From assembly GCF_038050405.1 (NCBI RefSeq), contig NZ_CP150901.1, positions 558,001 through 622,000 on the forward strand: a DNA stretch of 64,000 nt. The letters are read 5' to 3'. The position numbers were made by a program, and so were the translations under genes. This DNA is from Paraburkholderia sp. IMGN_8 (lineage in GTDB: Bacteria; Pseudomonadota; Gammaproteobacteria; Burkholderiales; Burkholderiaceae). Positions 8,623 to 30,138 of this stretch are shown here, piece after piece. The first letter of the stretch is position 1, and every line of letters begins with the position of its first letter. Below the pieces are notes generated by a model, which saw nothing but the letters and a program-made list of their open reading frames with translations, ran no database searches and was not told the origin of the DNA.

Positions 8623-9408
8623 TCAGGACGCCGCGTCTGGCGAGGCGATCACACGGTTGCGCAGCACACCGATCCCTTCGATCTCGACCTCGATCGTGTC
8701 TCCGGGCTTGATCGGGCCGACCCCCGCCGGTGTTCCCGTCATGATGTGATCGCCGGGAAGGAGCGTCATATACTTGCTGAGGTAGGCGATCAGCGTGGGC
8801 ACGCCATAGACGAGGTCGGCGGTGTTGCCGCTCTGGCGCACCTCGCCGTTGACGCGGGTGATCAGATGAAGGTTCGACGGATCGATGTCCGTCTCGACCA
8901 CGGGACCAATCGGCGCGAACGTGTCGTAGCCTTTACCCATGAGGAGGCAGCCGTACTCGCTCTCGCGACGCTGCAACACCCGGTCGCTGACGTCGTTGCC
9001 GCACGTGTAACCGAACACGTAACGCAGTGCATCGCTTTCGGAAACATGGCGCGCTTCCTTGCCGATGATCACCGTCAGCTCCCCTTCGAAATGAATGTTC
9101 TCGCCGTCGGGCGGATAGACGATGGCCGCGTCCGGGCCGATCACCGTGGTGCTGGGTTTCATGAACAGCACGGGCAGCGTGGGCGTGTTCTTCCCAACTT
9201 CCTGCGAATGCGCGCGGTAGTTGTATCCGAGACCGAAAACGCGAGGGCGGTGAAACGGGCTCAACACGCGAACTGATTCGAGTGTGTCGACATGGCCGGA
9301 AGGATGCAGTGCTTCCAGCGGCGAGCACTTCAGTCGCTGGATATTTCCGTCGCTGCCGAGAATGCCGTAATGCTCGTTGCCATCAATCGAATATCGCACG
9401 ATTTTCAT
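8623..9408 (-). CDS. fumarylacetoacetate hydrolase (FAH) family protein, HpaG/2-hydroxyhepta-2,4-diene-1,7-dioate isomerase-like
   Basis: A 261-aa FAH-fold enzyme. GLGYNYRAHSQEV opens the catalytic domain. The metal-binding acidic residues follow in HFEGELTVIIGKEAR and YTCGNDVSDR, then GKGYDTFAPIGP and the C-terminal LLPGDHIMTGTPAGVG. In meta-cleavage pathways this fold performs decarboxylation, isomerisation or C-C hydrolysis of ring-fission products. It is the last gene of the cupin-to-FAH operon, 91 bp after the ADH. The spacer holds a palindrome (9415-9424) and a 10-bp-stem hairpin (9454-9476). The exact reaction is not assigned. Confidence 0.88.
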   Translation of the reverse strand: MKIVRYSIDGNEHYGILGSDGNIQRLKCSPLEALHPSGHVDTLESVRVLSPFHRPRVFGLGYNYRAHSQEVGKNTPTLPVLFMKPSTTVIGPDAAIVYPPDGENIHFEGELTVIIGKEARHVSESDALRYVFGYTCGNDVSDRVLQRRESEYGCLLMGKGYDTFAPIGPVVETDIDPSNLHLITRVNGEVRQSGNTADLVYGVPTLIAYLSKYMTLLPGDHIMTGTPAGVGPIKPGDTIEVEIEGIGVLRNRVIASPDAAS

Positions 9409-9453
9409 GGGTTTTTACCGGTAAGAAGCGGACCGAAACTTGCGCGAGCGGGC

Positions 9454-9476
9454 GTGCAACTGCGGCGCAGTTGCAC
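9454..9476 (-). other. hairpin in the ADH-FAH spacer
   Basis: Perfect 10-bp arms (GTGCAACTGC / GCAGTTGCAC) with a 3-nt loop lie between the ADH stop and the FAH start. There is no U-tract, so an mRNA-processing or attenuating stem is more likely than a terminator. Confidence 0.4.
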
Positions 9477-9499
9477 TTGCGCTCACGCAGCGAAGCTAA

Positions 9500-10609
9500 T
9501 CAGGGAAGGACGACATAGTTGCTGAAGCCTCCGTCGCGATCCTTCAGGCCGGAGATGGCTTCATTGACGCGTTCGAGCGGGAATCTGCGATGTTCGAGAT
9601 ACGACAGGTCGATTGCGCCAGTGCTCACCATGTCGGCCATTTCCTGGCCCTGTGCCGTCGTGAACCAGTTCGATCCAATGATCTGCACCTGTTCATCCAT
9701 CAGCCACTTCACGTCGATAGGCAGGTCTTCCGCCACGCCGCCGACATTCACCACTCTGCCGCCGCGTCGAACGCCCTTCATCGAATCGAGCATGGTGGCC
9801 GCGGGCGCCTTCGCGCCAAGCGCACTGATAACAAAGTCCGCGCCTTCACCGCCCGTCAGCGACTTCGCCCATTCGCCCGTCGAGCCTTCGCCGAGCTGCA
9901 TCACTTCGATGCGGTCCGGCGCGAGCGCCTTGACACGTTTGAGCAGCGCTTCGTCGCGCCCCGTGCCGAGAATGCGCGACAGTCCCATGGCGAGGCCGAG
10001 CACCGTTGCAGCCACACCTAACGTGCCCGTGATGCCGTCTATGAGCGCAACCTGGCCTGGACCCGCGGCGGCGTTTTTCAGCGCACCGTACGACGTGCCC
10101 ATATACCCGAACCGGCCGGCCTGTTCGAAGCTCATGTTATCGGGGAGATTGACGATCGCATACTCGGGAGCGGTCATGTATTCGCTGAAGCCGCCATACG
10201 GGTAAAGATCGAAGATGCGTTGCCCGTCGCGGCTCGTGCTGAAGTACCCGTTCAGCGTGTAGTAGCGGCATTCACTGCGCCGGCCGGCCCGGCATGCCTT
10301 GCACGATCCGCAGGAACGCAACGGGCTCACATAGACGCGATCGCCCGGCTTGACGTTGAGGACCGCTTCACCGACTTCTTCGACGACCCCGGCGGGGTCC
10401 AGACCGAAGATGGCGGGAAATTTTGGCAGCGGCTGATGCGGAAACCAAGTCGGCCAGTTATTGATGACGTTCGCCATGTTCGGCACAATTCCGCATGCCT
10501 TGACTCGGACGAGAACATCGTTGGGTCTCGGTTTCGGCACCGGGATGGTATCGAGCGTCATCGGGGTGTGGAGAGCATGCAGCCGTGCTGCAACCATTGT
10601 TCGTTCCAT
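9500..10609 (-). CDS. zinc-dependent alcohol dehydrogenase (MDR superfamily)
   Basis: A 369-aa medium-chain dehydrogenase. The catalytic-zinc Cys is in VKACGIVPN. The structural zinc lobe has four Cys within CGSCKACRAGRRSEC, and the nucleotide-binding fold is ALIDGITGTLGVAATVLGLA. The start at 10609 is preceded by AGAGGAA at proper spacing; an upstream in-frame ATG at 10651 lacks such a site. It lies in the LacI-associated operon between a CMD protein and the FAH protein. It probably oxidises an alcohol or hydroxyl intermediate of that pathway. Substrate unknown. Confidence 0.87.
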   Translation of the reverse strand: MERTMVAARLHALHTPMTLDTIPVPKPRPNDVLVRVKACGIVPNMANVINNWPTWFPHQPLPKFPAIFGLDPAGVVEEVGEAVLNVKPGDRVYVSPLRSCGSCKACRAGRRSECRYYTLNGYFSTSRDGQRIFDLYPYGGFSEYMTAPEYAIVNLPDNMSFEQAGRFGYMGTSYGALKNAAAGPGQVALIDGITGTLGVAATVLGLAMGLSRILGTGRDEALLKRVKALAPDRIEVMQLGEGSTGEWAKSLTGGEGADFVISALGAKAPAATMLDSMKGVRRGGRVVNVGGVAEDLPIDVKWLMDEQVQIIGSNWFTTAQGQEMADMVSTGAIDLSYLEHRRFPLERVNEAISGLKDRDGGFSNYVVLP

Positions 10610-10693: not shown

Positions 10694-11227
10694 TCAGCGA
10701 TAACTCTCCTCGAGTTCGATCGCGAGTGCGCCCATGATGCGCACGCCGGAGTTGTACCAGGCGATGTTCAATGCGAGCTCGACCCGTTGCTGTTCGTTCA
10801 GGAACGGGACAATCCTGTTCCAGGTCTTGTCGCTGACGTCGACCTTCAGCGTCGACTCTTTTGCGACTGCCATCACCGCACGTTCCTCTTCGTTGAAGAG
10901 AGGCGATGTTTCGAAGTCGGGGATCGCCTTCAGTTGCTCGGCACTGATGCCCGCCTTCAGTCCATGCGACTGGTGATGCGCGATTTCGTATTCAGAGCCG
11001 GTGCAGTGTCCCACCGTCAGAATCGCGAGTTCACGCAGCTTCGGGCTGATCGACGACGCGCGGATTGCATTCGCGTAGGACAGGAACCGGTCGAGAATCT
11101 GCGGTGCGTGCACAAGCGCGCGGAAGATGTTCGCGGTAGGTACTTTGCGTTCACGTTCGAGCCGGTCGAAGAGGGCGTCGTTGACGCCTGCGAGGTCCGA
11201 ACGCTGAAGATATTTGACGCGTGCCAT
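10694..11227 (-). CDS. carboxymuconolactone decarboxylase (CMD)/AhpD-like family protein
   Basis: A 177-aa all-helical AhpD-fold protein. SPKLRELAILTVGHCTGSEYEIAHHQ is the family core (cited here as SPKLRELAIL and GHCTGSEYEIAHH). It has a single Cys, where AhpD peroxidases use CxxC, and so resembles the decarboxylase/hydratase-like branch rather than the peroxidase branch. The start at 11227 follows an AAGGAA ribosome site. The frame continues open far upstream only because it runs antisense through the dioxygenase gene. It is 20 bp from the dioxygenase gene and clearly co-transcribed with it. Confidence 0.85.
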   Translation of the reverse strand: MARVKYLQRSDLAGVNDALFDRLERERKVPTANIFRALVHAPQILDRFLSYANAIRASSISPKLRELAILTVGHCTGSEYEIAHHQSHGLKAGISAEQLKAIPDFETSPLFNEEERAVMAVAKESTLKVDVSDKTWNRIVPFLNEQQRVELALNIAWYNSGVRIMGALAIELEESYR

Positions 11228-11247
11228 AGTGGTTATTCCTTGCTCTA

Positions 11248-12255
11248 TCAGCTTTTTGCAAGCCGGTTCTGAATGTAGGTTTCGAGCGTCGTGGGACGCG
11301 GTTTGTTGGCCGTCTCGATCAGATCGGCTCCTTCGAACCGCGAGGCCTCGAAGTACCAGCGGTGCTCTGCCGGCAGACCCCAGCGCACGCTGGTACTCAG
11401 CGAAGCGGCATCCCAACGGACCGGTTCGATTTCGATGTCGATGGTCTGGTAATGACCGTCGCACAGTTCGACGCGATGACCATCTGGGTCGCGCAGATAG
11501 ACGAACAGCATGCCGCCTGGGCCGTGGCGGCCCGGCCCGCGTTCTACTTCGTGTGCATAGCCGTAGATGCCCGCGAGGTCGCACGCAGTGAAGATGTTGT
11601 GCGATTCGGGCACGATGTACGCAAAGTGATGCATGCACGGTCCGTCGTTCTCGACGATAGCCAGATCGAGGCACGTGCCTTTGCGATACATGAAGGCGCC
11701 GAGCAGCCGCTCGCCGTGCGCGAGATACTCGGAGTTGCGAAAGCCAAGCCTGCTGTAAAACGCGCAGGATTCGTATGTGTCCGGAGAGAAGATCTGGAAG
11801 TGATCGATCCGCTGCGCGTGTGCGCCCTTGAACAGGTTGCGGTCGAGATAGAGGCGCGGACGCGTTTCCATCTGCGCACACAATTCGATTTTTGTGCCGA
11901 ACGGATCGGACACATGCAAGGTTCTCCCTTGATGCGCGACTTCGACCCATTCGGCGGGAAGCCCTTCTTCGTTGAAGAACTGCCAGGCAAGGTCCAGGTC
12001 TTCTTCGAGGAAAACCCGAAAGCCAATCCGCTTGCAGATGGGTGCATTCCTGTCGGCCTGCACGAGAACCAGACTATGGTGGCACGCTTCGGACAGACCG
12101 CGCAGATAGCACGTGTCAGCGGTTTGTTCCGTCATGACCAGGCCGACGATGTCGACATAGAAGTCCCGGCTTTTCGCCAGGTCGGCGACGTTCAGTACGA
12201 TGTGGCTGGCGCGCGTGATATTGAAGGGCGGCCGGTGATTGACAGCAGGCAGCAT
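11248..12255 (-). CDS. extradiol ring-cleavage dioxygenase, HPCD-like (VOC superfamily)
   Basis: A 335-aa type I extradiol dioxygenase made of two VOC modules. The metal triad is in the C-terminal module: His of RIDHFQIFSP, His of GPCMHHFAYIVPES and Glu of DPDGHRVELCDG. GRHGPGGMLFVYLRDPDGH matches the active-site His loop of homoprotocatechuate 2,3-dioxygenases, and the tail resembles that family too. The reaction is Fe(II)/O2-dependent opening of a catecholic ring next to the hydroxyls. The start follows AAGAGGT. It sits between the enolase paralogue and the CMD protein in one operon. The natural catechol is unknown. Confidence 0.88.
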   Translation of the reverse strand: MLPAVNHRPPFNITRASHIVLNVADLAKSRDFYVDIVGLVMTEQTADTCYLRGLSEACHHSLVLVQADRNAPICKRIGFRVFLEEDLDLAWQFFNEEGLPAEWVEVAHQGRTLHVSDPFGTKIELCAQMETRPRLYLDRNLFKGAHAQRIDHFQIFSPDTYESCAFYSRLGFRNSEYLAHGERLLGAFMYRKGTCLDLAIVENDGPCMHHFAYIVPESHNIFTACDLAGIYGYAHEVERGPGRHGPGGMLFVYLRDPDGHRVELCDGHYQTIDIEIEPVRWDAASLSTSVRWGLPAEHRWYFEASRFEGADLIETANKPRPTTLETYIQNRLAKS

Positions 12256-12304: not shown

Positions 12305-13600
12305 TCAGATCGGGCGGTCCATGAAAGGCAGCGCGGACCATCCGCTGAATTGCGCCTGCCGTCCCAACGCTTCCTCGATTCGCAATACCTCGTTCCACTT
12401 GGCCATGCGTTCCGAACGCGAGAACGAACCGACCTTGAACTGACCCGCGTCCCAGCCGACCGACAAATGCGCGATGGTGACGTCTTCGGTCTCGCCGGAT
12501 CGCGCCGACACGATCGTGCCGAATCCAGCCGCCTTGCCTGCCTGCAGCGCCTCGTAGGCTTCGGTCACGGTGCCCGCCTGATTCGGCTTGATAAGCACGG
12601 CATTCAGCGTGCCGTCCATCGCGGCTGTTCTGACACGGGCCGCGTTGGTGACAAGAAAGTCGTCGCCGATGATCTGGCAACGCGAGCCGTACGATTGCGT
12701 AAAGAGCCTGAAGCCTTCCACGTCGTCTTCGGCAAGCGGATCTTCGATCGACAGGATCGGGTAGGTGTCCAGCCAGCGCCCCAGCATGTCGATCATCTGC
12801 GCGGTGTCGAGCGTCCTGCCGTCGAGCGCGAGCGTGTACTGTCCGTTGCGGCCGAATTCGGATGCGGCGATGTCGAGCGAGATGCCGACCTGCTTGCCGG
12901 GTTGCAGACCCGTGTCGACAATGGCGCGCACCAGCGTGTCGAGGGCGTCTTCGTTGCAGTCGAAGGCCGGCCAGTAGCCGCCTTCGTCCGCCACCCCCTG
13001 AAGCTTGCCCGCCTGCTTCATCAGCGAGCCGGCGGCGCGGTACACCTCCGCCGTCCACTCCAGCGCCTCGGTGAAGCTGCGCGCGGCGGGGCACATGATC
13101 ATGAAGTCCTGCACGTCGACGCGGCGCGCAGCATGTGCTCCGCCTCCGAATATCTGGATCTCGGGCAGCGGCAGGCGCACCGCACGTTCTCCGGCGAGAT
13201 AGCGCCACAACGGCTGGCTGCTTGCGGCAGCCGCGGCGTGCAGGACCGCCATCGAAGTCGCGACGATCGCATTGCCGCCCAGACGGCTGCGGTTGGGCGT
13301 TCCATCCAGGGCGACCAGACGGGCGTCGATAGCAGCCTGATCGCGGGCATCGGCGCCTTCGAGCGCACTCGCAATCTCGCCGTTTACCTTCGATAGCGCA
13401 TTGGATACGCCGAGGCCGCCGAAGGCGGCGCCGCCGTCGCGCAAGTCCAGCGCTTCTCCGCTGCCGGTCGAAGCGCCCGCGGGCGCAATCGCGCGACCGC
13501 TCATGCCGCCGTGCAGCGTGACCTCGACTTCCACCGTCGGACGGCCGCGCGAGTCCCAGACGCGTCGGCCGCGTACATGGGCGATCGTTGATTCAGTCAT
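12305..13600 (-). CDS. enolase paralogue with altered active site
   Basis: A 431-aa full-length enolase-fold protein. Conserved are the GASTG loop, His of GGGAHAARRVD, Glu of ADEGGYWP, the three Mg ligands (SLDIAASEF, SIEDPL, IIGDDFLVTN) and Lys of LIKPNQAGT. Two residues normally invariant in glycolytic enolase differ: the Glu of QEFM is Asp (VQDFMIM), and the His of SHRSGETED is Ala (SARSGETED). SIEDG is SIEDP. The gene lies 74 bp after the cupin gene in a catabolic operon, so it is very unlikely to be the housekeeping enolase. A kinase gene in the same regulon could supply a phosphorylated substrate. Function unproven. Confidence 0.85.
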   Translation of the reverse strand: MTESTIAHVRGRRVWDSRGRPTVEVEVTLHGGMSGRAIAPAGASTGSGEALDLRDGGAAFGGLGVSNALSKVNGEIASALEGADARDQAAIDARLVALDGTPNRSRLGGNAIVATSMAVLHAAAAASSQPLWRYLAGERAVRLPLPEIQIFGGGAHAARRVDVQDFMIMCPAARSFTEALEWTAEVYRAAGSLMKQAGKLQGVADEGGYWPAFDCNEDALDTLVRAIVDTGLQPGKQVGISLDIAASEFGRNGQYTLALDGRTLDTAQMIDMLGRWLDTYPILSIEDPLAEDDVEGFRLFTQSYGSRCQIIGDDFLVTNAARVRTAAMDGTLNAVLIKPNQAGTVTEAYEALQAGKAAGFGTIVSARSGETEDVTIAHLSVGWDAGQFKVGSFSRSERMAKWNEVLRIEEALGRQAQFSGWSALPFMDRPI

Positions 13601-13674: not shown

Positions 13675-14271
13675 TCATTCGCTTCTGCGCGCTCCGATCA
13701 GGACGAAGGCCAGCGTCGCGGGCCGGTCGCTTTTGTTTCGCCACGCATGGCGGGTTCCGTTCTGCACGACGACTTCATGCTTGCGCATCAGCTCCGCGCG
13801 TCCCTCGTCAAGCTCGAGCCAGATTTCGCCGTCGAGAACGATGCCGTAATCGACGGTCGGGGTCGCGTGCATGCCGTCCTCCTCGAAAAGCTCCGCAAGT
13901 CCCGGACTGATTGCGAGGTTTTCAGTGGCCGCGGCCTGCGGATCGAAGCCAGGTGCAAAGAACACGCTATCCGGAGGAAACGTCACGATGAGAAAGCGCG
14001 TGCCCGACACCGCGGGGACGAAGCTGGCGACAGCCGGAGTGGGGTCCGTGCCGTCAAAAGGAATGGCTTGCGCCGGTTCCGTTGCCCAGACAAGACGGGA
14101 CACCAAGCCGGGGATATGCTGGTACGCGTCGGAGCGGGGAGGCGGCGAATCGAGTGCGACTGTCGATGCGCCGCTTGCGTTGTGGCCGGTGACGACGCGA
14201 CGAATTGCTAGCGGCACGTCGCCCGTGCTCGGGGTATCGAACTGGAGAGGAGCGGCATTGGCGTCTTTCAC
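13675..14271 (-). CDS. cupin-domain protein, first gene of the dioxygenase operon
   Basis: A 198-aa protein. The C-terminal half is a double-stranded beta-helix cupin: HATPTVDYGIVLDGEIWLEL is the first motif region (shown as TPTVDYGIVLDGEIWLEL) and VVQNGTRHAWRNKSDRPA is the second with its His. The GTG start at 14271 is preceded by AGGAGA; upstream codons belong to the promoter/operator region. Such stand-alone cupins can be metal-dependent enzymes or small-molecule binders, and the N-terminal half is not recognisable. It leads the operon running to the FAH gene at 8623. Confidence 0.78.
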   Translation of the reverse strand: MKDANAAPLQFDTPSTGDVPLAIRRVVTGHNASGASTVALDSPPPRSDAYQHIPGLVSRLVWATEPAQAIPFDGTDPTPAVASFVPAVSGTRFLIVTFPPDSVFFAPGFDPQAAATENLAISPGLAELFEEDGMHATPTVDYGIVLDGEIWLELDEGRAELMRKHEVVVQNGTRHAWRNKSDRPATLAFVLIGARRSE

Positions 14272-14287: not shown

Positions 14288-14299
14288 GCTAACGTTCGC
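14288..14299 (-). promoter_or_regulatory. putative LacI-family operator, site 1
   Basis: GCTAACGTTCGC, an 11/12 match to the palindrome GCTAACGTTAGC. It lies just downstream of the -10 of the cupin operon promoter, where a bound repressor would block transcription start. A looser GCAAACGCTGC-like element follows near 14310. Confidence 0.65.
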
Positions 14300-14411: not shown

Positions 14412-14423
14412 GCAAACGTTAGC
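14412..14423 (-). promoter_or_regulatory. putative LacI-family operator, site 2
   Basis: GCAAACGTTAGC, 124 bp upstream of site 1 (same-side spacing, about 12 helical turns), which would allow looping between the two. Confidence 0.6.
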
Positions 14424-14599: not shown

Positions 14600-15625
14600 T
14601 CAAGACGGTCGGGACTCGATCTCTTCCAGCCATGCTTGCGCCACCTGATAGAGATATTCGACCGGCCCCAGCAGCAGCCGAGTGGCGACCGCGCGGACGT
14701 GATCGCGTTGCACATCATTGGTCAGATACTCGACCGGCGACTTGCCGTCGACGCGCGCGAGGAGTAACGCAGGCAACAACTCAGCCGTGCGCGCTTCGAG
14801 CGCCGCGCGCAGTTCCCAGTCCGCTTCTTCGAAATAGGCTTCGGTCAGTGCCTTGAACGAAGCGATCAGCGCTTCCCGCCGATCCGGACGAACCAGGCAC
14901 TTGAGCAGCAGATGGTTCAGGCAGAACGCAAGATCGAAGGCCGGGTCGCCAAACCACGCGCATTCGGCGTCGAGCAATACCGGTCCCTTGGGGCCCACAA
15001 GAATGTTCTTCGGGCTCACGTCGCCGTGCACGAGCGCGGTGCGTATGCTCGCCGTGCGCTCGGCCAGATAGCGCAGCCTCGATTCGAGTTCCGGATGATG
15101 CTTCGACGTGGCGATCAGGTAAGGATCGAGCCGCAGCGCCTGAAAATTTTCCAGCGTGTCGAACCTGTCGCGCAACTCGATATCGTCGGCGCTGACCGCG
15201 TGTAGATGCCCGACCAGCCGTCCGACGGCGCGGGCCGTGTCGGGATCGACTTCGCCGTGCAGCAGTTGCTGCTTCCACATGGGATGCGCCGACGGCGCAA
15301 GAAACGACATGGCGAACACGCCGAGCCTGGCGTCGTGCGCGAGAGGAGTCGGCACATTGTCGGGGCAGTGCCGTGCAGCGAATTGCATCCAGGCCCATTC
15401 ATCGGCGTTGCGCGATACGGGGGCTTGCCAGCTTGCCGATACCTTCAGCGTGGAGAGAGCGCGCTTCACGCACAGCGATCCCGTGGCTAGATCGACACGC
15501 CATATGTCGGACGAGACTCCGCCGGTGAGCGGGTGCCAGGTGGCTGCTTCATCCTCGCGCGCGAGCTCGTGTTCAACGAGAAATGCATCGAGCTGCGGGT
15601 CGGGGCTATTGGGTTGCATCATCAC
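14600..15625 (-). CDS. APH-fold small-molecule phosphotransferase
   Basis: A 341-aa kinase-like protein of the aminoglycoside/choline kinase superfamily. The catalytic loop LVHGDVSPKNILVG supplies Asp and Asn, and VLLDAECAWFGDPAFDLAFC provides the metal-binding DxE and the family DPAFDL motif. The N-terminal lobe has a Gly-rich turn (PLTGGVSSDIW) and an ATP-site Lys (LCVKRAL). It lies 30 bp after the D-2-hydroxyacid dehydrogenase and shares its LacI-type control region. Members phosphorylate hydroxyls of diverse metabolites, so resistance is not implied. A hydroxy acid feeding the enolase paralogue is an attractive but unproven substrate. Confidence 0.85.
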   Translation of the reverse strand: MMMQPNSPDPQLDAFLVEHELAREDEAATWHPLTGGVSSDIWRVDLATGSLCVKRALSTLKVSASWQAPVSRNADEWAWMQFAARHCPDNVPTPLAHDARLGVFAMSFLAPSAHPMWKQQLLHGEVDPDTARAVGRLVGHLHAVSADDIELRDRFDTLENFQALRLDPYLIATSKHHPELESRLRYLAERTASIRTALVHGDVSPKNILVGPKGPVLLDAECAWFGDPAFDLAFCLNHLLLKCLVRPDRREALIASFKALTEAYFEEADWELRAALEARTAELLPALLLARVDGKSPVEYLTNDVQRDHVRAVATRLLLGPVEYLYQVAQAWLEEIESRPS

Positions 15626-16687: not shown

Positions 16688-16699
16688 ACTAACGTTAGC
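16688..16699. promoter_or_regulatory. putative LacI-family operator, site 3
   Basis: ACTAACGTTAGC, an 11/12 match, 70 bp upstream of the hydroxyacid dehydrogenase ATG and 154 bp (centre to centre) from site 4 in front of the porin. Confidence 0.65.
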
Positions 16700-16841: not shown

Positions 16842-16853
16842 GCTAACGTTCGC
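16842..16853 (+). promoter_or_regulatory. putative LacI-family operator, site 4
   Basis: GCTAACGTTCGC, identical to site 1, placed at about +6 to +17 of the predicted porin transcript, a classical repressor position. Confidence 0.65.
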
Positions 16854-17073
16854 GCTAAAGTGGCACGGATTGCAAACGACTCGAATGGCCCGGTGGCCTT
16901 CCAGTGGCCCGGCAGCGATCGTGTGGTACGACAAAGAGGCAAGGAGGCGGTGTGCGCGCCATAAAAAGACCTGTTCGAAATCAGGCGACGCCTTGCACGG
17001 CGTTCGGTGCCACTCCTTGAAAACGCAGCGCCCGCAGAAAAACCTAAATATCACGACTGGCAGGAGACAACGA

Positions 17074-19282: not shown

Positions 19283-19360
19283 TAGTGCGAACAAATCGTT
19301 TGTGGTGCCGCTAATGTGCCGATAAATTTGCGGCATGACAGTTCTTCTAGCGAGTATGAA

Positions 19361-20545: not shown

Positions 20546-20551
20546 CCGCTC

Positions 20552-21790: not shown

Positions 21791-21850
21791 TTGCGGGCGC
21801 GTTCTGCTACTTAGTACGGCGGTGGCGTAGTCAGATTGGAACATTGATAA

Positions 21851-23515
21851 ATGAATCTCCCCGAAATCAGCGGCCCGCGCGAATCGATGGAATACGACGT
21901 CGTGATCGTCGGCGGCGGCCCGGCCGGGCTGTCCGCAGCGATCCGCCTGAAGCAGCGCGCGGCTGAAAAAGGCGTGGAAACTGGTGTCTGCGTACTGGAA
22001 AAAGGCTCGGAGATCGGGGCTCACATCCTCTCGGGCGCGGTGATGGATCTGCGCGCGATTACCGAACTGATCCCGGACTGGAAGGAAAAAGGCGCGCCGC
22101 TGACCGTGGACGTGACCGAAGACCGCTTCCTGTTCCTCACCGAGACCGGTTCGAAGAGCGTGCCGGTCTGGGCGTTGCCGGACAACTTCAAGAATCACGG
22201 CAATTACGTGATCAGCCTCGCGAACGTGACGCGCTGGCTCGGTCAGCAGGCCGAAGCCGCGGGGGTGGAGATTTTCCCGGGCTTTCCGGCCGCCGAAGTG
22301 CTCTACCACGACGACGGCTCGGTCAAGGGCGTGGCGACCGGCAATCTGGGCATCGGCAAGGACGGCCAGCCGACTGAGAACTTCCAGCTCGGCATGGAGC
22401 TGCACGCGAAATACACGCTGTTCTGCGAAGGCGCGCGTGGGCACCTGGGCCGCCAGCTGAACGACCGGTTCAGGCTGCGCGAAGGCGTCGATCCGCAGGT
22501 CTACGGGATCGGCATCAAAGAACTGTGGGAAATCGATCCGTCGAAGCACAAGCCGGGTCTGGTGATGCACACGGCCGGCTGGCCGCTGGAGAACGATACG
22601 TACGGCGGCTCGTTCCTGTACCACATGGACAACAACCAGGTGGTGGTGGGTTTTGTCGTGGGTCTCGGCTACACCAATCCGTATCTGTCGCCATTCGAGG
22701 AATTCCAGCGCTACAAGACGCATCCGGCGATCCGCGCGATTCTGGAAGGCGGCAAGCGGGTGTCGTATGGCGCGCGGGCGATCACCGCGGGCGGCCTGAT
22801 GTCGCTGCCGAAGCTGGTGTTCCCGGGCGGTGCGCTGGTCGGCGACGACGCGGGCTTCCTGAACGCGTCGCGGATCAAGGGTTCGCACGCGGCCATCAAG
22901 ACGGGGATGCTGGCGGCTGAAGCGGCGTTCGATGCGGTGCAGGCCGGGCGTCAGGCGGATGAACTGGTGGCGTATCCGGAAGCGTTCAGGGCGTCGTGGC
23001 TGCACAGCGAGCTGCATCGGGCGCGCAACTTCAAGCAGTGGATGAGCAAGGGCCTGTACCTCGGTACGCTGATGGTCGGCATCGAGCAGAAGGTGCTCGG
23101 CGGCAATGTGCCATGGACGCTGCATCACCAGCATTCCGATCACGAGATGCTGAAGCCCGCGTCGCAGTGCAAGCCGATTGTTTATCCGAAGCCCGATGGC
23201 AAGCTGACGTTTGACCGGTTGTCGTCGGTGTTCATCTCGAACACGAATCATGAGGAAAACCAGCCGGCGCACCTGACGCTCAAAGATCCTTCGGTGCCGG
23301 TGAACGTGAACTGGCAGACCTATGCCGGTCCGGAAGCGCGGTATTGCCCCGCGGCGGTGTATGAGTTCGTCAGGAACGACGACGGCAGCGAGCGGTTGGT
23401 CATCAACGCGCAGAACTGCGTGCACTGCAAGACCTGTGATATCAAGGATCCCACCCAGAATATCGTTTGGGTCACGCCTGAGGGCGGCGGTGGGCCTAAT
23501 TATCCGAACATGTGA
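21851..23515 (+). CDS. electron transfer flavoprotein-ubiquinone oxidoreductase (ETF-QO)
   Basis: A 554-aa membrane-associated flavoprotein that reoxidises ETF and reduces ubiquinone. The FAD motif VIVGGGPAGLSAAIRLKQ is near the N-terminus. The C-terminal [4Fe-4S] ligands are Cys of YCPAAVYEF and the CVHCKTCDIKDPTQNI triad, and GGGGPNYPNM is the usual end. It lies 60 bp after the CoA-transferase and links the GcdH/ETF pair encoded in the same operon to the respiratory chain. Confidence 0.95.
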   Translation: MNLPEISGPRESMEYDVVIVGGGPAGLSAAIRLKQRAAEKGVETGVCVLEKGSEIGAHILSGAVMDLRAITELIPDWKEKGAPLTVDVTEDRFLFLTETGSKSVPVWALPDNFKNHGNYVISLANVTRWLGQQAEAAGVEIFPGFPAAEVLYHDDGSVKGVATGNLGIGKDGQPTENFQLGMELHAKYTLFCEGARGHLGRQLNDRFRLREGVDPQVYGIGIKELWEIDPSKHKPGLVMHTAGWPLENDTYGGSFLYHMDNNQVVVGFVVGLGYTNPYLSPFEEFQRYKTHPAIRAILEGGKRVSYGARAITAGGLMSLPKLVFPGGALVGDDAGFLNASRIKGSHAAIKTGMLAAEAAFDAVQAGRQADELVAYPEAFRASWLHSELHRARNFKQWMSKGLYLGTLMVGIEQKVLGGNVPWTLHHQHSDHEMLKPASQCKPIVYPKPDGKLTFDRLSSVFISNTNHEENQPAHLTLKDPSVPVNVNWQTYAGPEARYCPAAVYEFVRNDDGSERLVINAQNCVHCKTCDIKDPTQNIVWVTPEGGGGPNYPNM

Positions 23516-23527
23516 TTGAAGAGCGAC

Positions 23528-24373
23528 ATGCAAACAATTGGAATCATAGGCGCGGGGCAAATGGGAAGCGGCATCGCGCTGGTATGTGCAATAGCCGGCC
23601 TCGACGTGATCGTCACGGATCTCGATGAACATGCAGTGAAACGCAGCATCGAAAGCATCGCGGCGAATCTCGGGCGGATGGTATCGAAGGGGAAAACGAC
23701 TTCAGCCGAAGCAGCGTCGGCGTTGGAACGAATCAAGGGAAGCACTCTGTTGACTGTGCTTGCCGAATGCGACTTCGTGATCGAGGCGGCGACGGAAAAT
23801 GTTCAGATCAAAGAGCAGATTCTGAGGAAGCTGGATGCCATCGTGCGGCCGAATGCAATCATCGCGACCAATACTTCATCGGTGTCCGTCACGAGGCTCG
23901 GTGCGACGCTCAATGACCCGAGCCGCTTCACGGGGATGCACTTTTTCAACCCCGTTCCGTTGATGGCGCTCGTCGAAGTGATTCGCGGGCTTCAAACTAG
24001 CGACGTCACGTTCGATGCGACCGTCGGCCTTGCAAAACGTATCGGGAAGACCGCGATTTGCGTGAAGAATTCCCCAGGCTTCGTGGTCAATCGCATTCTG
24101 ATACCGATGATTAATGAAGCGATTTTCGTGCTTCACGAAGGCCACGCGAGCGCCGCAGAGATCGACGAGGGCATGAAGCTGGGCGCCAATCATCCGATCG
24201 GACCGCTGGCGCTGGCGGACCTCATCGGACTCGATACGATGCTCGCGATCATGGACGTGTTGTACCGCGACTTCAACGATTCGAAATATCGTCCGGCGCC
24301 TTTGCTCAAGGAAATGGTGGACGCGGGCTATCTTGGACGAAAGAGTGGACAGGGTTTTTATACCTATCCTTAA
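23528..24373 (+). CDS. 3-hydroxyacyl-CoA (3-hydroxybutyryl-CoA) dehydrogenase
   Basis: A 281-aa NAD-dependent dehydrogenase. [17 protein letters not shown] is the dinucleotide fold. Catalytic Ser and His are in [10 protein letters not shown] and [11 protein letters not shown], and [18 protein letters not shown] is the conserved C-terminal helix. It would oxidise 3-hydroxybutyryl-CoA, which forms from the GcdH product crotonyl-CoA after hydration; no enoyl-CoA hydratase gene is seen here. ATG 23528 is preferred to the TTG at 23516, which directly abuts the ETF-QO stop. Confidence 0.92.
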
Positions 24374-24390
24374 CGCTGAGGCAAAACATC

Positions 24391-25140
24391 TTGAAGATCA
24401 TTGTCGCTGTGAAGAGAGTAGTTGATTACAACGTGAAGGTGCGCGTGAGGTCGGACAACACGGGCGTCGACATCGCGAATGTGAAGATGTCGATGAATCC
24501 GTTCGACGAAATCGCGGTGGAAGAAGCGGTGCGTCTGAAGGAAGCGGGCGTGGCGACCGAGGTGATCGCTGTTTCTTGTGGGGTCACGCAATCGCAGGAA
24601 ACGCTGCGCACGGCGCTGGCGATCGGCGCGGACCGCGCGATCCTGATCGAATCGAACGAAGAGCTGCAGCCGCTGGCCGTGGCCAAGCTGCTGAAGGCGC
24701 TGGTCGACAGGGAACAGCCGCAGCTGATCATCCTCGGCAAGCAGGCCATCGACGACGATTCGAACCAGACCGGCCAGATGCTCGCCGCGCTGGCTAACCT
24801 GCCGCAAGCCACCTTCGCCTCGAAGGTTGTCGTGGCGGACGGCAAGGCGACCGTGTCGCGTGAAGTGGATGGCGGCGCCGAAACGCTGTCGCTGACGCTG
24901 CCCGCTGTGGTCACGACCGACCTGCGCCTGAACGAGCCGCGCTACGTGACGCTGCCGAACATCATGAAGGCGAAGAAGAAGCCGCTGGACACGATCAGGC
25001 CCGAAGACCTCGGCGTTGAGGTGACGCCGCGCCTGAAGACGCTGAAAGTCGCCGAGCCGCCGAAGCGCTCCGCCGGTGTGATGGTGCCGGATGTGAAGAC
25101 GCTGGTCGAGAAGCTGAAGACTGAAGCCAGGGTGCTTTAA
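24391..25140 (+). CDS. etfB: electron transfer flavoprotein beta subunit, copy 2
   Basis: A 249-aa EtfB, last-but-one gene of the glutarate operon, 17 bp after the dehydrogenase. Unlike copy 1 it uses a TTG start (TTGAAGATCATTG) after GAGG, as expected for a translationally tuned operon member. Its first 115 residues carry the only differences from copy 1 (for example IIVAVKR against IVVPVKR). From 24733 on the DNA is identical to copy 1. Confidence 0.95.
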
Positions 25141-25948
25141 GTAACACGCGGAGACGGAACAAATGACGAATCTGGTTAATCTTGTAATAGCAGAACATGA
25201 CAGTGTGTCGATCAAGGCCGCGACGCTGAACACGATTGCAGCGGCGCAGAAGATCGGCGGTGACATTCACGTGCTGGTGGCCGGTCACAACGCGCAGGCC
25301 GCGGCGGATGCGGCCGCGAAGATCGCGGGCGTCAGCAAGGTGCTGCTGGCCGACGCGCCGCAACTCGAAGCGGGTCTCGCGGAAAACGTCGAGGCGACGG
25401 TGCTGACGCTTGTGCAAGACCCGGCGACGGACTACTCGCACATCCTCGCGTCGGCCACCGCCTACGGCAAGAACATCGCCCCGCGTATCGCCGCGAAGCT
25501 CGACGTCGCACAGATCAGCGACATCACCGCAGTGGACAGCGCCGACACGTTCGAACGCCCGATCTACGCGGGCAACGCGATTGCTACGGTGCAATCGGCT
25601 GATCCGATCAAGGTCATCACGGTGCGCACGACGGGCTTCGACGCGGTCGCAGCCGTTGGTGGCAGCGCCACGGTCGAGAAGATCGCAGCCGCGGCAGACA
25701 CAGGCATCTCGCAGTTCGTCAGCCGTGAAGTGACGAAGCTGGACCGTCCGGAGCTGACGTCGGCGAAGATCATCGTCTCGGGTGGCCGCGGTCTCGGCAA
25801 CGGCGAGAACTACACCAAGGTGCTGGAGCCGCTGGCCGACAAGCTGAACGCAGCGCTGGGCGCATCGCGTGCGGCGGTCGATGCGGGCTTCGTGCCGAAC
25901 GACTATCAGGTCGGCCAGACCGGCAAGATCGTCGCGCCGCAACTGTAC
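24733..25948 (+). repeat. 1,216-bp identical tract, partner of 6800-8015
   Basis: Second member of the gene-conversion pair. The first mismatch upstream is the codon before CTCGGCAAG of etfB (ATC here, ATT in copy 1). The first downstream is GTG/ATG after CTGTAC in etfA. Confidence 0.9.
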
Positions 25949-26131
25949 GTGGCCGTCGGCATTTCGGGGGCAATCCAGCACCTCGCAGGCATGAAGGACT
26001 CGAAGGTGATCGTGGCGATCAACAAGGACCCGGAAGCGCCGATTTTCAGCGTCGCCGACTACGGCCTGGTCGACGATCTGTTCACGTCAGTGCCCGAGCT
26101 TATCGAGCGAATTTCCGAACATCAACGTTAG
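25163..26131 (+). CDS. etfA: electron transfer flavoprotein alpha subunit, copy 2
   Basis: A 322-aa EtfA, FAD subunit partner of the copy 2 EtfB, four residues longer than copy 1 because the tail reads [20 protein letters not shown]-domain motifs ([25 protein letters not shown]) are intact. DNA identity with copy 1 ends at 25948, after which synonymous and missense changes accumulate. It is the last gene of the glutarate operon and is convergent with the LacI gene at 22 bp. Confidence 0.95.
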
Positions 26132-26153: not shown

Positions 26154-27206
26154 TCAAGCCGTGGCCCCGCGCATCGAAGCACGTACCGATGTCTTCGTCG
26201 GCGGACCCGGTTTGCGTGTGCTGCCTCGCATAATAAGTGTCGCCGGCGAGATCGACGTGTACGGCGAAACGGTGCCCGAATTCTGCCGGACGTGATGGAC
26301 GAACCACAGCCCGCACGCGGTGGCGAGATCGTGTACGGGAAGTCCCACGGTGGTCAATCCAGGTCCCCACCACCGGAAGCCGAGTTCGTCGCCGAATCCA
26401 ACGACCGACAGGTCGTCCGGAGCGCGCACTCCCTGAGCCAGCAGTTCTTCCAGGATGCCCTGGGTCATCTGGACCGAACCCGCGACGATTGCCGTCGGAG
26501 GCTTGGGCAACGACAGCAGCCGGCGGGTTGCGTTAGCGCCGAAATCGACCTCGCTCGGCGCGCCCAGTTGCACAAGGGCGGGTTCGCCTGATGCAACGCC
26601 GGTCAGTGCCTTGTGATAACCCTTCAGGCGCGCGGAACCCGTAGGCAGATCGTCGGTGCCGCCGATATAGCCGATTCGGCGATGGCCGAGCTGCACGAGG
26701 TGACTGGTCGCCTCGAAGATGGCCTGCGTATCGTCAATTCCGAACCACTGATCCCCGATCGCCGCATGCTTGCGCAGCAGTTGCACGTGTGGCGACAATT
26801 TGAGCAACCGGACTGTTTCCCGATGAGGCTTCGCGGTCGGCACGATGATGATCCCCGCGACATTCGCGCTCGCCAGTTCACGAACGCTCTGCAACTCGAC
26901 CATCCGGTCATCGTCGGTTTCCGACAGGGCCAGTTGATAACCGGCTGCCTGCAGGCATTTCGACAGAGCATGGGCGATGGTCGCGTAGAAGCCGTTCCTG
27001 ATGTCCGGCAGGACGAGGCCCACGAGGTTGCTCGAAACGCCTCGCATCATGCGTGCCGCGAGATTGGCCACATAACCCATTTCATCTGCGACCTGAGCCA
27101 CCTTCTGTTTGGTGGCTGCGCTGATGCGCGGGTCGTCGGCAAGCGCCCGTCCTACCGTCGACGGAGAGACTTGCAGGCGAGCGGCGATGTCTTTGATGGT
27201 GACCAT
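26154..27206 (-). CDS. LacI/GalR-family transcriptional regulator
   Basis: A 350-aa LacI-type repressor. The N-terminal helix-turn-helix is VTIKDIAARLQVSPSTVGRA, the hinge helix NLAARMMRGVSSNLVGLVLP, and a periplasmic-binding-protein effector domain follows (LGHRRIGYIGG, DLSVVGFGDE). Helix 2 has S-P-S-T-V-G-R-A in place of the usual V-S-R-A/T-V-S. Two palindromic operator candidates lie upstream, and four more occur in front of the cupin, hydroxyacid dehydrogenase and porin genes 10-13 kb away. It is therefore the likely regulator of that dispersed pathway. The effector is unknown. Confidence 0.9.
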   Translation of the reverse strand: MVTIKDIAARLQVSPSTVGRALADDPRISAATKQKVAQVADEMGYVANLAARMMRGVSSNLVGLVLPDIRNGFYATIAHALSKCLQAAGYQLALSETDDDRMVELQSVRELASANVAGIIIVPTAKPHRETVRLLKLSPHVQLLRKHAAIGDQWFGIDDTQAIFEATSHLVQLGHRRIGYIGGTDDLPTGSARLKGYHKALTGVASGEPALVQLGAPSEVDFGANATRRLLSLPKPPTAIVAGSVQMTQGILEELLAQGVRAPDDLSVVGFGDELGFRWWGPGLTTVGLPVHDLATACGLWFVHHVRQNSGTVSPYTSISPATLIMRGSTRKPGPPTKTSVRASMRGATA

Positions 27207-27323: not shown

Positions 27324-27335
27324 GCTAACGTGAGC
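27324..27335 (-). promoter_or_regulatory. putative LacI-family operator, site 5
   Basis: GCTAACGTGAGC, a 10/12 match, about 120 bp upstream of the LacI start, suited to autoregulation. Its centre is 66 bp from site 6. Confidence 0.55.
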
Positions 27336-27389: not shown

Positions 27390-27401
27390 GCTAACGTTAG
27401 C
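27390..27401 (+). promoter_or_regulatory. putative LacI-family operator, site 6 (perfect palindrome)
   Basis: GCTAACGTTAGC, fully self-complementary, extended to ATGCTAACGTTAGCGCAT. Being 4 bp after a -10 hexamer, a bound repressor would exclude RNA polymerase. Confidence 0.7.
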
Positions 27402-27825
27402 GCATCAGAAGAACCGGGCGCGTCGGTAATCGCGGCGGCCAGCGTCGAAGTCGATTCGCCATTGGCCGGCTAGGCGGGGAGAGGAGGCGGAAGCCATGTT
27501 TGAAGAGGGATCCTTGCGGTTCCATGTCGAAAAGTGGTTTGGGCGAACAGCCATTTCGTCATTGGAGGTGAGCCGCGTCAGGCCCGCGAAGCTGGGAAGA
27601 AATAGATGTGTCCAGGTCGTGTCGTCGCAATCGGAGAACCGCGTGACGATATTTTTCTTCCAGCACGGCGACGGTCGATGGAGCGTCTTTCCGCCGCCGA
27701 CCCGTCGCGCCACGCTGACGTTCTCAAACCGCTAACAACACGCAGCATCGAATTTCGCTTCAGTATCGCGGCCTGCATCGACAGGACCGGCGACTTAATA
27801 AACGCAATACAAAGGAGACACCACG

Positions 27826-29109
27826 ATGAATGCCCCTCGGCATGACGTTCGCTATGAACGCGGGACACTTGCGCTGCTCGGCATTGGGTTTGGACTGGTC
27901 GGCTTCGACCGCTGGCTGCTCGCTCCGCTGTTTCCGCACATCATGCACGACCTGGGGCTGAACTATTCGCAACTGGGCAGCCTCGTGGGAATACTGGGCG
28001 TCGCGTGGGGCCTTTGGTCAATCGCCATGGGACCGCTTGCAGACCGCATCGGCCGGAAGAAGATTCTTGTGACGACGATGATCGCCTTCTCGGTGTTGTC
28101 GAGTCTTTCCGGATTGGCGACAGGCTTTCTCAGCCTGCTGCTGTTGCGCGCCGCAATGGGCGTCGCCGAGGGCGCATTCACGCCGGCGAGCATCGCCGCG
28201 AATAGCGAGGCTTCGCTGCCGGCGCGCCGCGGACTCAATCAGGGCATACAGATCAGCATGATCCCTTTAATGGGTCTCGGCTTCGCGCCTATCGTCGCCA
28301 CGCAATTGCTTGAGATCGTCCCAAACTGGCATTGGGTGTTCACGCTGTCGGCCGTGCCCGGCTTCATCGTTGCAGCGCTGATCTGGCGCTGCGTGCGTGA
28401 TCGCGATACGCCCACGGTCCACACGTCGCGGGAACCGGTCGATCGGCCGCGCTGGACTGAGCTCTTTGCAAGCCGCAACGTCGCGGTCGCCACCCTCGCC
28501 ATTCTTTGCGCAATGAGCGGGATATTCGTGATTGGCGCGATGGTGCCGACGTACCTGGTTTCAGTTGTTCATCTCGACATGCGGAGCATGGGATTCGTCG
28601 CGTCGGCAGTGGGATTCGGCGGCTTTATTGGGTGTTTTGCGCTTGCCGGTCTCTCGGACTTCATCGGACGCCGTCCGACTGCCTTGATCGGGTTTGTCTG
28701 TGCGGCCGCTCTTTTGTATCTGTTTTCGTGCACGGGTCCCAATCCGACGATGCTGTTCATTCTGCTGTTCGGTGTCGCGATGTTCTCGATGGGTCTGTTG
28801 AGCCTGCTCAGTGGTCCGATCGCGACAGAGGCCGCACCCGTCGGACTCATTGCATCGACGATCGGTTTCGTGTCGGGCGTGGGCGAGACGTTTGGCGGCG
28901 GGGTTGCGCCGGTCATCGCAGGTTTCATCGCCCAGCATTTCGGCCTTGCACGTACGCTCGATTTCGCGCTTTACAGCCTGGCCACCGGAGCAGTGGTCGC
29001 GTTCTTCCTCATCGAAACCGCGCCGCGCAAGCGCCGTGATGGAGCGGCACAGGCGCAGCCGGCCGCGGACGGCATCGGCGGTGTCATCGCGCGTAACGGC
29101 GACGCATGA
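27826..29109 (+). CDS. MFS transporter
   Basis: A 427-aa major facilitator with about 12 hydrophobic segments. The loop 2-3 signature is GPLADRIGRKKILV and the equivalent in the second half is GLSDFIGRRPTALIG. AAAGGAGACACC precedes the ATG. Probably proton-coupled uptake of an aromatic or carboxylic acid, judged from its place beside the LacI gene and an FAH enzyme. It shares the operator type found in front of the porin, so it may carry the same substrate across the inner membrane. Confidence 0.9.
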   Translation: MNAPRHDVRYERGTLALLGIGFGLVGFDRWLLAPLFPHIMHDLGLNYSQLGSLVGILGVAWGLWSIAMGPLADRIGRKKILVTTMIAFSVLSSLSGLATGFLSLLLLRAAMGVAEGAFTPASIAANSEASLPARRGLNQGIQISMIPLMGLGFAPIVATQLLEIVPNWHWVFTLSAVPGFIVAALIWRCVRDRDTPTVHTSREPVDRPRWTELFASRNVAVATLAILCAMSGIFVIGAMVPTYLVSVVHLDMRSMGFVASAVGFGGFIGCFALAGLSDFIGRRPTALIGFVCAAALLYLFSCTGPNPTMLFILLFGVAMFSMGLLSLLSGPIATEAAPVGLIASTIGFVSGVGETFGGGVAPVIAGFIAQHFGLARTLDFALYSLATGAVVAFFLIETAPRKRRDGAAQAQPAADGIGGVIARNGDA

Positions 29110-29160
29110 GCTCGCGTTCGAGAAACACACACGCTCGCTAACACCAATACGACTACTGCC

Positions 29161-30138
29161 ATGCTTCCAGTACTTGTCAACGTTTCATTCGCCCATTGCA
29201 CGCCGTTTCCAGCGTTGTCTACCGATACGCATGCACTTGCGTTGGCCTATTGGGCGCCTGTGGGCTTGCGCGGGGCGGACTGCATCGGGACCTTCTTGCA
29301 TGAGTGGGACGCAAACGCGGCTTTGCTAAAGCAGATCTCCGACGATCCCGCGACTGCTGACGGAATCACAAAGCATGGCATGCCGCTTTCGAGCTTTCGC
29401 ATGCATGCTCCAGTCGCACCACGCCAAGTCTATTGCACGATCGGCAATTACCGCAGCCAACTCCTGCAAGCCGCTCTCGATGCGGACGACGGACCGGATG
29501 GTCCCGGCGCCGCCGGACGCCGCACTGCCTTGCTGAATTCCGTTGAAACGCGGCGCCGCGATGGCGCTCCATACATCTGTCTAAAAGGTCCTGCCTACGT
29601 TTCAGGACCGAATGATTTGCTGCCTGTTTCGCGCGATCTCAAGACGCTCGACTGGGAAGTGGAGATTGGTGTCGTGATCGGCAAAAGCGCAGTACATGTC
29701 CGCGCCGAAGATGCGCTCGACTGCATTGCCGGCTATTGTGTCGTCAATGACATCACGTTGCGCGAGCGGGTATTTCGTCAGGACGCACCCGCGTTGGGCA
29801 CGGACTGGCTGCAATCGAAATCGCGGCCGGGCTGGCTTCCTGCCGGACCGTGGATGGTTCCCGCATGGAATATCGCCGATGCACAACAGCTCAGGTTATG
29901 GCTTCGTCTGAACGGATCCTTGATGCAGGACGGAGTAGCCAGCGACATGATCTTCAGCATTAGCGAGCAGATTGCCTATCTTTCGAACTTCACGCGGCTC
30001 GAGCCCGGCGACCTGATTTGCACCGGTGCGCCAGCCGGCCTCGGCACCCACTATGGACGCTACTTGCGCCCCGGCGATGTCGTCGAAGCGGGCATTGATG
30101 GTCTCGGTTCGCAGCGATTGACGTGTACCGAGGTTTAA
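29161..30138 (+). CDS. fumarylacetoacetate hydrolase (FAH) family protein
   Basis: A 325-aa FAH-family enzyme, distinct from the one at 8623-9408. An N-terminal domain of about 80 residues is followed by YCTIGNYRSQ. Metal ligands are in DWEVEIGVVIGKSAV and YCVVNDITLRERV, and the chain closes with LEPGDLICTGAPAGLGTHYG. It lies 51 bp after the MFS gene. The two FAH proteins in one inferred regulon could act on successive ring-cleavage intermediates; substrates are unknown. Confidence 0.85.
   Translation: MLPVLVNVSFAHCTPFPALSTDTHALALAYWAPVGLRGADCIGTFLHEWDANAALLKQISDDPATADGITKHGMPLSSFRMHAPVAPRQVYCTIGNYRSQLLQAALDADDGPDGPGAAGRRTALLNSVETRRRDGAPYICLKGPAYVSGPNDLLPVSRDLKTLDWEVEIGVVIGKSAVHVRAEDALDCIAGYCVVNDITLRERVFRQDAPALGTDWLQSKSRPGWLPAGPWMVPAWNIADAQQLRLWLRLNGSLMQDGVASDMIFSISEQIAYLSNFTRLEPGDLICTGAPAGLGTHYGRYLRPGDVVEAGIDGLGSQRLTCTEV

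Follow-up and report, generated by a model that had tools for sequence, protein, structure and literature searches.

Six CG-centred palindromes in Paraburkholderia sp. IMGN_8 as candidate operators of a probable LacI-controlled catabolic regulon

Here we describe a dispersed set of six 12-bp palindromes in a 64,000-nucleotide stretch of the 9.11-Mb genome of Paraburkholderia sp. IMGN_8 (contig NZ_CP150901.1, positions 558,001 to 622,000, or G000:C2:558001-622000 in our numbering; hereafter the window). Judging from comparative sequence evidence, these palindromes are in all likelihood the operators of the LacI-family regulator encoded at 26154..27206 (minus strand), and the four transcription units that carry them form one regulon. 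The units comprise (i) genes for a cupin protein (CUP), an enolase paralogue (ENO), a VOC extradiol dioxygenase (VOC), a carboxymuconolactone-decarboxylase-family protein (CMD), a zinc-type alcohol dehydrogenase (ADH), and a fumarylacetoacetate-hydrolase-family enzyme (FAH1), (ii) genes for a D-isomer-specific 2-hydroxyacid dehydrogenase (HADH) and an APH-family kinase (KIN), (iii) a Gram-negative porin gene (POR), and (iv) lacI with a small open reading frame (ORF), an MFS transporter gene, and a second FAH-family gene (FAH2). An initial annotation of this DNA had proposed that the palindromes are LacI operators uniting these units, and co-occurrence in related genomes, footprinting across three bacterial classes, sites that follow relocated genes, and a different palindrome beside LacI paralogues all speak for it. 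The same annotation saw one pathway split by an unrelated glutarate operon; the single regulon of four units stands, but "unrelated" does not sit well with glutaryl-CoA genes that adjoin the cluster in 18 of 33 related loci. A larger conserved catabolic regulon appears to be the best reading, and it is strongly supported for its LacI-controlled part.

Distribution of the palindrome in the window and the genome

The palindrome tested, GCTAACGTTAGC, is matched at 11 of 12 positions at 14288, 14412, 16688, 16842, and 27324 and at all 12 at 27390, within the range of 10 to 12 originally reported, and all six sites fall in the control regions of the four units. Operator 1 (GCTAACGTTCGC, 14288..14299) is located between a TTGACA-18-CACAAT promoter (14333-14304, minus strand) and the cupin start, with sites kept at cupin or FAH1 heads in relatives; operator 2 (GCAAACGTTAGC, 14412..14423) is 124 bp upstream of it. 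Operator 3 (ACTAACGTTAGC, 16688..16699) precedes the HADH start by 70 bp and is separated by 154 bp, across divergent promoters, from operator 4 (again GCTAACGTTCGC, 16842..16853), which is found in the porin leader past the -10 of a TTGACA-17-TAGACT promoter (16801-16829). Operator 5 (GCTAACGTGAGC, 27324..27335) lies between lacI and the small-ORF/MFS unit, 66 bp from the perfect operator 6 (GCTAACGTTAGC, 27390..27401), which follows the -10 of a TTGACG-17-TATCAT promoter (27358-27386). Three TTGACx promoters do precede sites, as had been annotated; the wording that the site comes just after the -10 hexamer suits 14288 (4 bp) and 27390 (3 bp) and is loose for 16842 (12 bp). This promoter anatomy would fit repression, and looping is possible.

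At no more than one mismatch, the 9.11-Mb genome contains 11 places that match GCTAACGTTAGC, six of them being the reported sites inside 13 kb, versus 55 places for a control pattern (GCTAACGTTAGC read backwards). From the five outside places, 0.007 sites would be expected in the 13.1-kb span that holds six (P(>=6) = 2e-16). A similar frequency at random positions genome-wide, named in the initial annotation as counter-evidence, is not what the genome displays, and the low number of places also led us to reject the palindrome as a genome-wide repeat. A looser signal was rejected as well: at two or fewer mismatches there are 166 places genome-wide, and at three or fewer the window holds 26 matches versus 19.15 expected from shuffles, a number reached in 6 of 100 shuffles. 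Given this small excess, and given that exact copies are no more frequent than those of the control pattern (two each in the genome, one of the former inside the window), the claim rests on clustered near-perfect sites.

When all 4096 possible 12-bp palindromes were ranked at no more than one mismatch, GCTAACGTTAGC came first both in the window cluster (6 matches, the next having 3) and in 17 Burkholderiales loci of less than 90% identity (68, the next having 47). In four Actinobacteria loci, a W-variant, GCTATCGATAGC, shares the first rank with a GC-rich palindrome (13 each), with GCTAACGTTAGC fourth (9). The consensus of the distant sites is TGCTAWCGWTAGCA, and a central CG is present in 69 of 69 distinct distant sites (general form GCTAWCGWTAGC), these sites having been preselected at no more than one mismatch. 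The view that such CG-centred palindromes are typical of the LacI family agrees with PMC4052901, where operators of this family are as a rule palindromes of even length centred on CG.

The LacI protein contains a helix-turn-helix domain and a periplasmic-binding-protein-like domain, passes the family test (PF00356, 49.1 bits against a cut-off of 27; PF13377, 81.8 bits against 26.5), and is further characterized by its orthologues and helix-turn-helix alignment. It had been annotated as the only LacI protein here, and a tblastn search with it retrieved no second one in the window at E<=1e-5.

Co-occurrence in relatives and sites at rearranged unit heads

Among 144 genomes of the genus, an orthologue of LacI (76-100% identity) occurs in 12, and VOC occurs in the same 12, the two lying on different contigs in four of these (G052, G063, G076, and G135). 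Six further genomes contain only LacI paralogues of 38-44% identity (E<=1e-60). Exact copies of the palindrome were found in 12/12 genomes with LacI and VOC (26 places) versus 17/132 others (19 places; Fisher 5e-10), so that the co-occurrence in relatives by which the proposal was to be checked is borne out within the genus; an order-wide sample contained no carrier other than the organism's own genome (1/399).

For comparison of gene order, a contig scan with the dioxygenase gave 30 loci; altogether 37 loci were examined, of which 33, in stretches of 14-41 kb and with the window excluded, have a VOC match of at least 60%. Two pairs in this set (L103/L108 and L104/L106) are of one genus each. 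VOC (by selection), ENO, FAH1, and ADH are present in all 33 loci, KIN, HADH, CUP, and CMD in 32, and, within the fetched stretches, LacI in 19 and FAH2 in 9. Unit heads were called only against homologues of window genes, such that unlisted intervening genes make some genes look like site-less heads, and some gene calls in relatives were made with a home-made GC-frame caller, which places starts too far upstream (e.g. for the MFS gene of L057). In the head counts, L046/L079 and L049/L081, each pair being one genome, were counted once, close relatives remain, and L060, L061, L063, and L064 (VOC 48-51%, no cluster, no site at one mismatch or fewer), L092-L098, and L101-L108 were omitted.

Sites recur at the heads of units as gene order changes. 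Heads with a site in close Paraburkholderia are HADH 7/7, POR 7/7, LacI 9/9, CUP 7/8, and FAH1 3/4, together with MFS 0/9, VOC 0/3, ENO 0/2, and ADH 0/5. In distant Burkholderiales the corresponding values are FAH1 18/18, HADH 9/9, LacI 10/11, MFS 4/5, POR 5/8, CUP 7/19, VOC 4/16, KIN 0/1, ENO 0/6, and ADH 0/18, and in Actinobacteria LacI 3/4, CUP 3/4, FAH2 2/2, and VOC 2/3, with FAH1, ADH, and CMD at 0/1 each. Upstream of unit heads there are 2.2-2.5 sites per kb, versus 0-0.04 per kb elsewhere.

LacI paralogues and operator specificity

The six loci with LacI paralogues (38-44% identity; L093-L098) contain no match to GCTAACGTTAGC versus 11 matches to GCACACGTGTGC, which ranks first of 4096 palindromes there and is present in five of the six loci, with none in L097. 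The recognition helix reads STVGRAL in 16/16 aligned orthologues (56-100% identity) and TTVSRAL or STVSRAL in 6/6 paralogues. Helix and palindrome therefore vary together between orthologue and paralogue loci, as expected of a cognate pair. Homologues of KIN and ENO are found in L093-L096, accompanied in three of these four by homologues of HADH and FAH1; L097 lacks homologues of all four genes, and L098 has only a weak HADH match. In L095, the KIN and ENO homologues are located alongside genes for NIPSNAP and methylmalonate-semialdehyde dehydrogenase.

Probable relationship of the glutarate operon to the regulon

The glutarate/glutaryl-CoA operon (19316..26131, plus strand) encodes an acyl-CoA dehydrogenase (GcdH), a CoA-transferase (CoAT), ETF-QO, a 3-hydroxybutyryl-CoA dehydrogenase (HBD), and the beta and alpha subunits of ETF, and adjoins a LysR regulator gene (18322..19233, minus strand) that likewise has no palindrome. 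The annotation of this operon as devoid of sites was correct, as no match at two or fewer mismatches was found in 18322-26131 (operon and LysR gene). The operon probably answers to another regulator here, perhaps its LysR.

Tested against equivalog cut-offs, GcdH scores 208.5 of the required 470 with the glutaryl-CoA model NF045552 and is outscored by three acyl-CoA dehydrogenase/reductase models, all of them under their own cut-offs. An 11-residue motif is present in GcdH which we take to be the glutaryl-CoA dehydrogenase motif. The best model for CoAT is succinate-glutarate CoA-transferase (NF052585), at 534.7 of 750.

Homologues of GcdH or CoAT occur in the fetched stretches of 18/33 loci from Alphaproteobacteria, Betaproteobacteria, and Actinomycetota, namely 11 from Burkholderiales, Rhizobium L101 and L107, Sphingobium L102, Arthrobacter L057 and L059, Nocardia L058, and Rhodococcus L103. 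Next to the cluster of Rhizobium sp. N324 are a LysR gene and a homologue of each of the six operon genes. HBD and ETF form a separate unit in G124 (L082) and G063 (L084), and two palindromes lie upstream of HBD there (2/2), the position in L082 being between HBD and a divergent MFS gene followed by ETF-QO. In Sphingobium, a W-variant with no mismatch precedes HBD by ~55 bp, in the interval that separates HBD from a divergent gene, and in Arthrobacter L057 and L059 the interval between lacI and a divergent MFS-CoAT-GcdH-ECH/HCDH run contains palindromes. From these arrangements, the glutarate operon is likely to be part of the same pathway, with glutarate as one of its products.

The enolase paralogue, PEP carboxylase, and a possible C3 branch

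ENO (12305..13600, minus strand) passes the enolase equivalog model TIGR01060 (493.9 bits, cut-off 300), and the genome also contains a normal housekeeping enolase that is 46% identical to it. Three motifs of true enolases are altered in ENO: SHRSGE reads SARSGE, QEF reads QDF, and an Arg occupies the HAxR loop. These residues are shared by 13/13 aligned paralogues, including those of L093-L096, while the housekeeping copy L100 keeps the normal residues, and they are also invariant in a second alignment of 13 enolase paralogues (the window copy, nine chosen from 120 listed of 7997 matches, and three from fetched loci). ENO may either make phosphoenolpyruvate (PEP) with an altered site or dehydrate a larger phosphorylated acid.

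A gene for PEP carboxylase is found within the cluster in 6/33 loci (Rhizobium indicum, Rhizobium sp. N324, Cupriavidus necator C39, Cupriavidus sp. P-10, Rhodococcus pseudokoreensis, and R. opacus PD630) and was not found in the other 27 stretches. The L101 copy passes NF000584 (1113.7, cut-off 815) and contains the motifs VFTAHPTE, GYSDSNKD, and FHGRGGSVGRGG; the other copies were assigned by annotation or tblastn. Each of the six genes has a zero-mismatch GCTAWCGWTAGC upstream, at 43 bp in both Rhizobium and ~0.5 kb in both Rhodococcus; in both Cupriavidus the palindrome is upstream of a member of the small ORF family that precedes the MFS gene in the window. HADH (15656..16618, minus strand, start inferred) and KIN (14600..15625, minus strand, by family match), together with ENO, could route a C3 hydroxyacid to PEP, a proposition that we regard as evenly balanced.

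The dioxygenase and its substrate

VOC (11248..12255, minus strand) is nearest to HpaD, the homoprotocatechuate 2,3-dioxygenase, and falls under the HpaD equivalog cut-off (TIGR02295, 284.2 versus 321.4). Its RIDHF, MHHFA, and RVEL segments align with RLDHF, MHHVA, and RIEI of 1f1r, and the aligned residues presumably form the two-His-one-Glu metal site. An arginine pair near residue 293 of the known enzyme, which we take to bind the substrate carboxylate, is replaced in the alignment; the substrate of VOC may therefore lack that carboxylate. Homoprotocatechuate, hydroxytyrosol, resorcinols, and flavonoid fragments were considered as substrates, and none could be supported.

Other genes of the cluster and neighbouring features

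The cupin gene (13675..14271, minus strand, GTG start inferred) is the first of the long operon, its product scoring 25.2 bits with Cupin_2, under the cut-off of 27. It is followed on the same strand, beyond ENO and VOC, by CMD (10694..11227, start inferred, matched in the longer frame 10694-11950), ADH (9500..10606, start inferred, longer frame 9500-10651), and FAH1 (8623..9408, by family match). The porin gene (17068..18243, start inferred), the small ORF (27496..27735, 79 aa), the MFS transporter gene (27826..29109), and FAH2 (29161..30138), the latter two by family match, are on the plus strand. In P. lacunae (L035:15122-19244), cupin and ADH genes recur in another cluster, at 50% and 57% identity, together with nitroreductase and FAH genes and with no palindrome of the GCTAACGTTAGC type.

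The small ORF, located between operator 6 and the transporter gene, is conserved and has no Pfam match; its family forms 8 clusters among 5.8 billion proteins searched. Every copy in the fetched loci has a palindrome 43-250 bp upstream. This orphan family precedes the MFS gene in Paraburkholderia and PEP carboxylase in Cupriavidus, in both cases behind the palindrome.

The ETF beta/alpha genes occur twice in the window (6458-8186 and 24391-26131; 97.0% DNA identity over 1692 bp), which is a recent duplication or gene conversion, and an ETF-alpha-like fragment is found at 31164-31286. A methyl-accepting chemotaxis gene lies within the clusters of L039 (5997-7679) and L040 (5289-6857), which suggests chemotaxis toward the substrate.

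Alternative explanations

A number of observations weigh against the regulon and pathway proposed here. The genome has five further near-perfect sites outside this set; judged by eye on ORF calls, with gene names from visual reading, one precedes a PNPOx-like gene by 44 bp and another the likely start of a phosphoesterase gene by ~100 bp, while a third falls within the 3' end of a porin gene and two fall within other reading frames. These five are probably due to chance. The first of them (G000:C1:3174475-3174486) is a perfect palindrome that has no exact equivalent in the closely related G052, whose two exact sites are on contigs with VOC or LacI. Many of the loci are close relatives, and a large number of distant heads have no site (CUP 12/19, VOC 12/16, POR 3/8, ADH 18/18, ENO 6/6). 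Some site-less heads are explained by the 79-aa ORF between operator and MFS gene in the close set, by ABC-transporter genes before CUP in L047, and by an FMN-reductase gene before VOC in L051, and the close-set CUP and FAH1 without a site belong to the second, paralogous cluster of L035. At L092:4395 (G063:C86), a perfect palindrome also directly precedes another LacI gene, of 27% identity, so that a similar operator may be used by a second LacI protein. Together with the lack of a LacI orthologue in 14/33 fetched stretches, which reach ~10 kb to each side, that site would be in keeping with a palindrome belonging not to this LacI protein but to another regulator, either the adjacent LysR or a genome-wide factor. 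We regard this as very improbable, given that LacI and VOC occur in the same 12/144 genomes, that palindrome and LacI helix change together between orthologue and paralogue loci, that LysR heads carry a site in 0/13 cases and no homologue of this LysR was matched in several clusters, and that CG-centred palindromes of even length are usual for LacI-family operators (PMC4052901).

Even with the LacI regulon taken as real, the glutarate operon could be a mere frequent neighbour, as part of a catabolic island or through a common need for ETF, and serve another substrate. Its own adjoining LysR gene would fit this, as would the absence of sites at heads of GcdH (0/15, any group) and CoAT (0/3) and at four of six HBD heads (2/6 with a site); same-strand operon genes precede the four (two close, two Arthrobacter). 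Glutaryl-CoA genes were, moreover, not found in 15/33 stretches, including all six Variovorax loci, and the palindromes upstream of HBD are shared with a divergent neighbour, which leaves their target ambiguous (G124, Sphingobium), or have their other side outside the fetched stretch. We nevertheless consider a mere neighbour unlikely, since the adjacency recurs with differing gene orders in Alphaproteobacteria, Betaproteobacteria, and Actinomycetota, and since palindromes stand upstream of HBD in three genomes (G124, G063, Sphingobium) and beside the Arthrobacter run that includes CoAT and GcdH. As for the C3 branch, the positions at which ENO departs from true enolases are ones that we take to be catalytic, and the Rhodococcus palindrome, in the interval between a MarR gene and the divergent PEP carboxylase gene, has an ambiguous target. 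ENO may instead be a dehydratase of a larger phosphorylated acid, with PEP carboxylase in relatives serving general anaplerosis; the altered residues common to all 13 aligned paralogues and the normal enolase already in the genome favour this, but the remaining enolase motifs are kept, and clusters with HADH, KIN, and ENO in three classes hold PEP carboxylase with an upstream palindrome, such that we rate the dehydratase as a serious possibility with somewhat less than an even chance.

Proposed regulation and pathway

From the sites, their conservation, and their linkage we infer protein binding, the direction of regulation, the individual reactions, and a class of substrate as follows. The LacI protein most likely represses a single catabolic regulon (cupin-ENO-VOC-CMD-ADH-FAH1, HADH-KIN, the porin gene, and lacI with smallORF-MFS-FAH2), operators just downstream of the -10 at three promoters being positioned for steric repression and second sites lying 66-154 bp away, and would be released by a ligand that is probably either the pathway substrate or one of the intermediates. 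Extradiol cleavage by VOC and C-C hydrolysis by FAH1/FAH2 would convert a catechol-type compound to a C3 hydroxyacid and glutarate. The C3 part would pass via HADH, KIN, and ENO to PEP and, in some relatives, via PEP carboxylase to oxaloacetate, while glutarate would be converted via glutaryl-CoA to acetyl-CoA by the glutarate operon, a downstream branch that here has no palindrome and sits beside its own LysR gene.

More tentatively, and with the odds against the scheme in its entirety, these parts may make up an undescribed aerobic pathway of three bacterial classes, in which a catechol-type compound yields glutarate plus a C3 hydroxyacid, a dedicated kinase together with an enolase remodelled at its active site (and PEP carboxylase in some lineages) provides a serine-cycle-like route to PEP/oxaloacetate, and one LacI repressor controls the whole; sister LacI/kinase/enolase clusters with the other operator would serve a related compound, and the orphan 79-aa protein, which in the fetched loci always follows one of these operators, would take part.

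The gene set is found on several plasmids and is shared by bacteria of soil and roots from three classes. Its members are annotated piecemeal, under such names as phosphopyruvate hydratase, aminoglycoside phosphotransferase, or C-terminal binding protein. The altered motifs suggest that calling this protein an enolase, as automatic annotation does, is wrong or incomplete. The operator is specific enough to suggest new members of the catabolic gene set, and the two LacI subfamilies with different palindromes offer a natural pair for studying change in LacI specificity.

Comparison with known systems

Local LacI-family regulons, as described by Ravcheev et al. 2014 (PMC4052901), share with this one even CG-centred upstream palindromes, sites beside the regulator gene, and the clustering of transporter and catabolic genes with the regulator; they mostly serve sugars, whereas here an extradiol-dioxygenase pathway and a dedicated enolase paralogue are involved. 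No description of this regulon was found among the open-licence papers searched, none of which contained the full 12-mer.

The Hpa meta-cleavage pathway is similar in that VOC is closest to HpaD and FAH1 resembles the C-terminal domain of HpaG; unlike in that pathway, FAH1 is under the HpaG cut-off (206.2 of 276.4), as VOC is under that of HpaD. Neither an aldehyde dehydrogenase nor a hydratase or aldolase was seen among the cluster genes tested in the window, and we know of no place in the Hpa route for a kinase, an enolase, or a hydroxyacid dehydrogenase. Glutarate catabolism through a CoA-transferase and glutaryl-CoA dehydrogenase is matched by the CoA-transferase, acyl-CoA dehydrogenase, ETF, ETF-QO, and HBD of the operon, which differs in being tied here to a LacI regulon. 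The lower half of the serine cycle consists of hydroxypyruvate reductase, glycerate 2-kinase, enolase, and PEP carboxylase. The same enzyme classes, as predicted from sequence, are present where the cluster holds PEP carboxylase, but the route proposed differs from the serine cycle in its APH-family kinase, its divergent enolase paralogue, and its link to a ring-cleaving dioxygenase.

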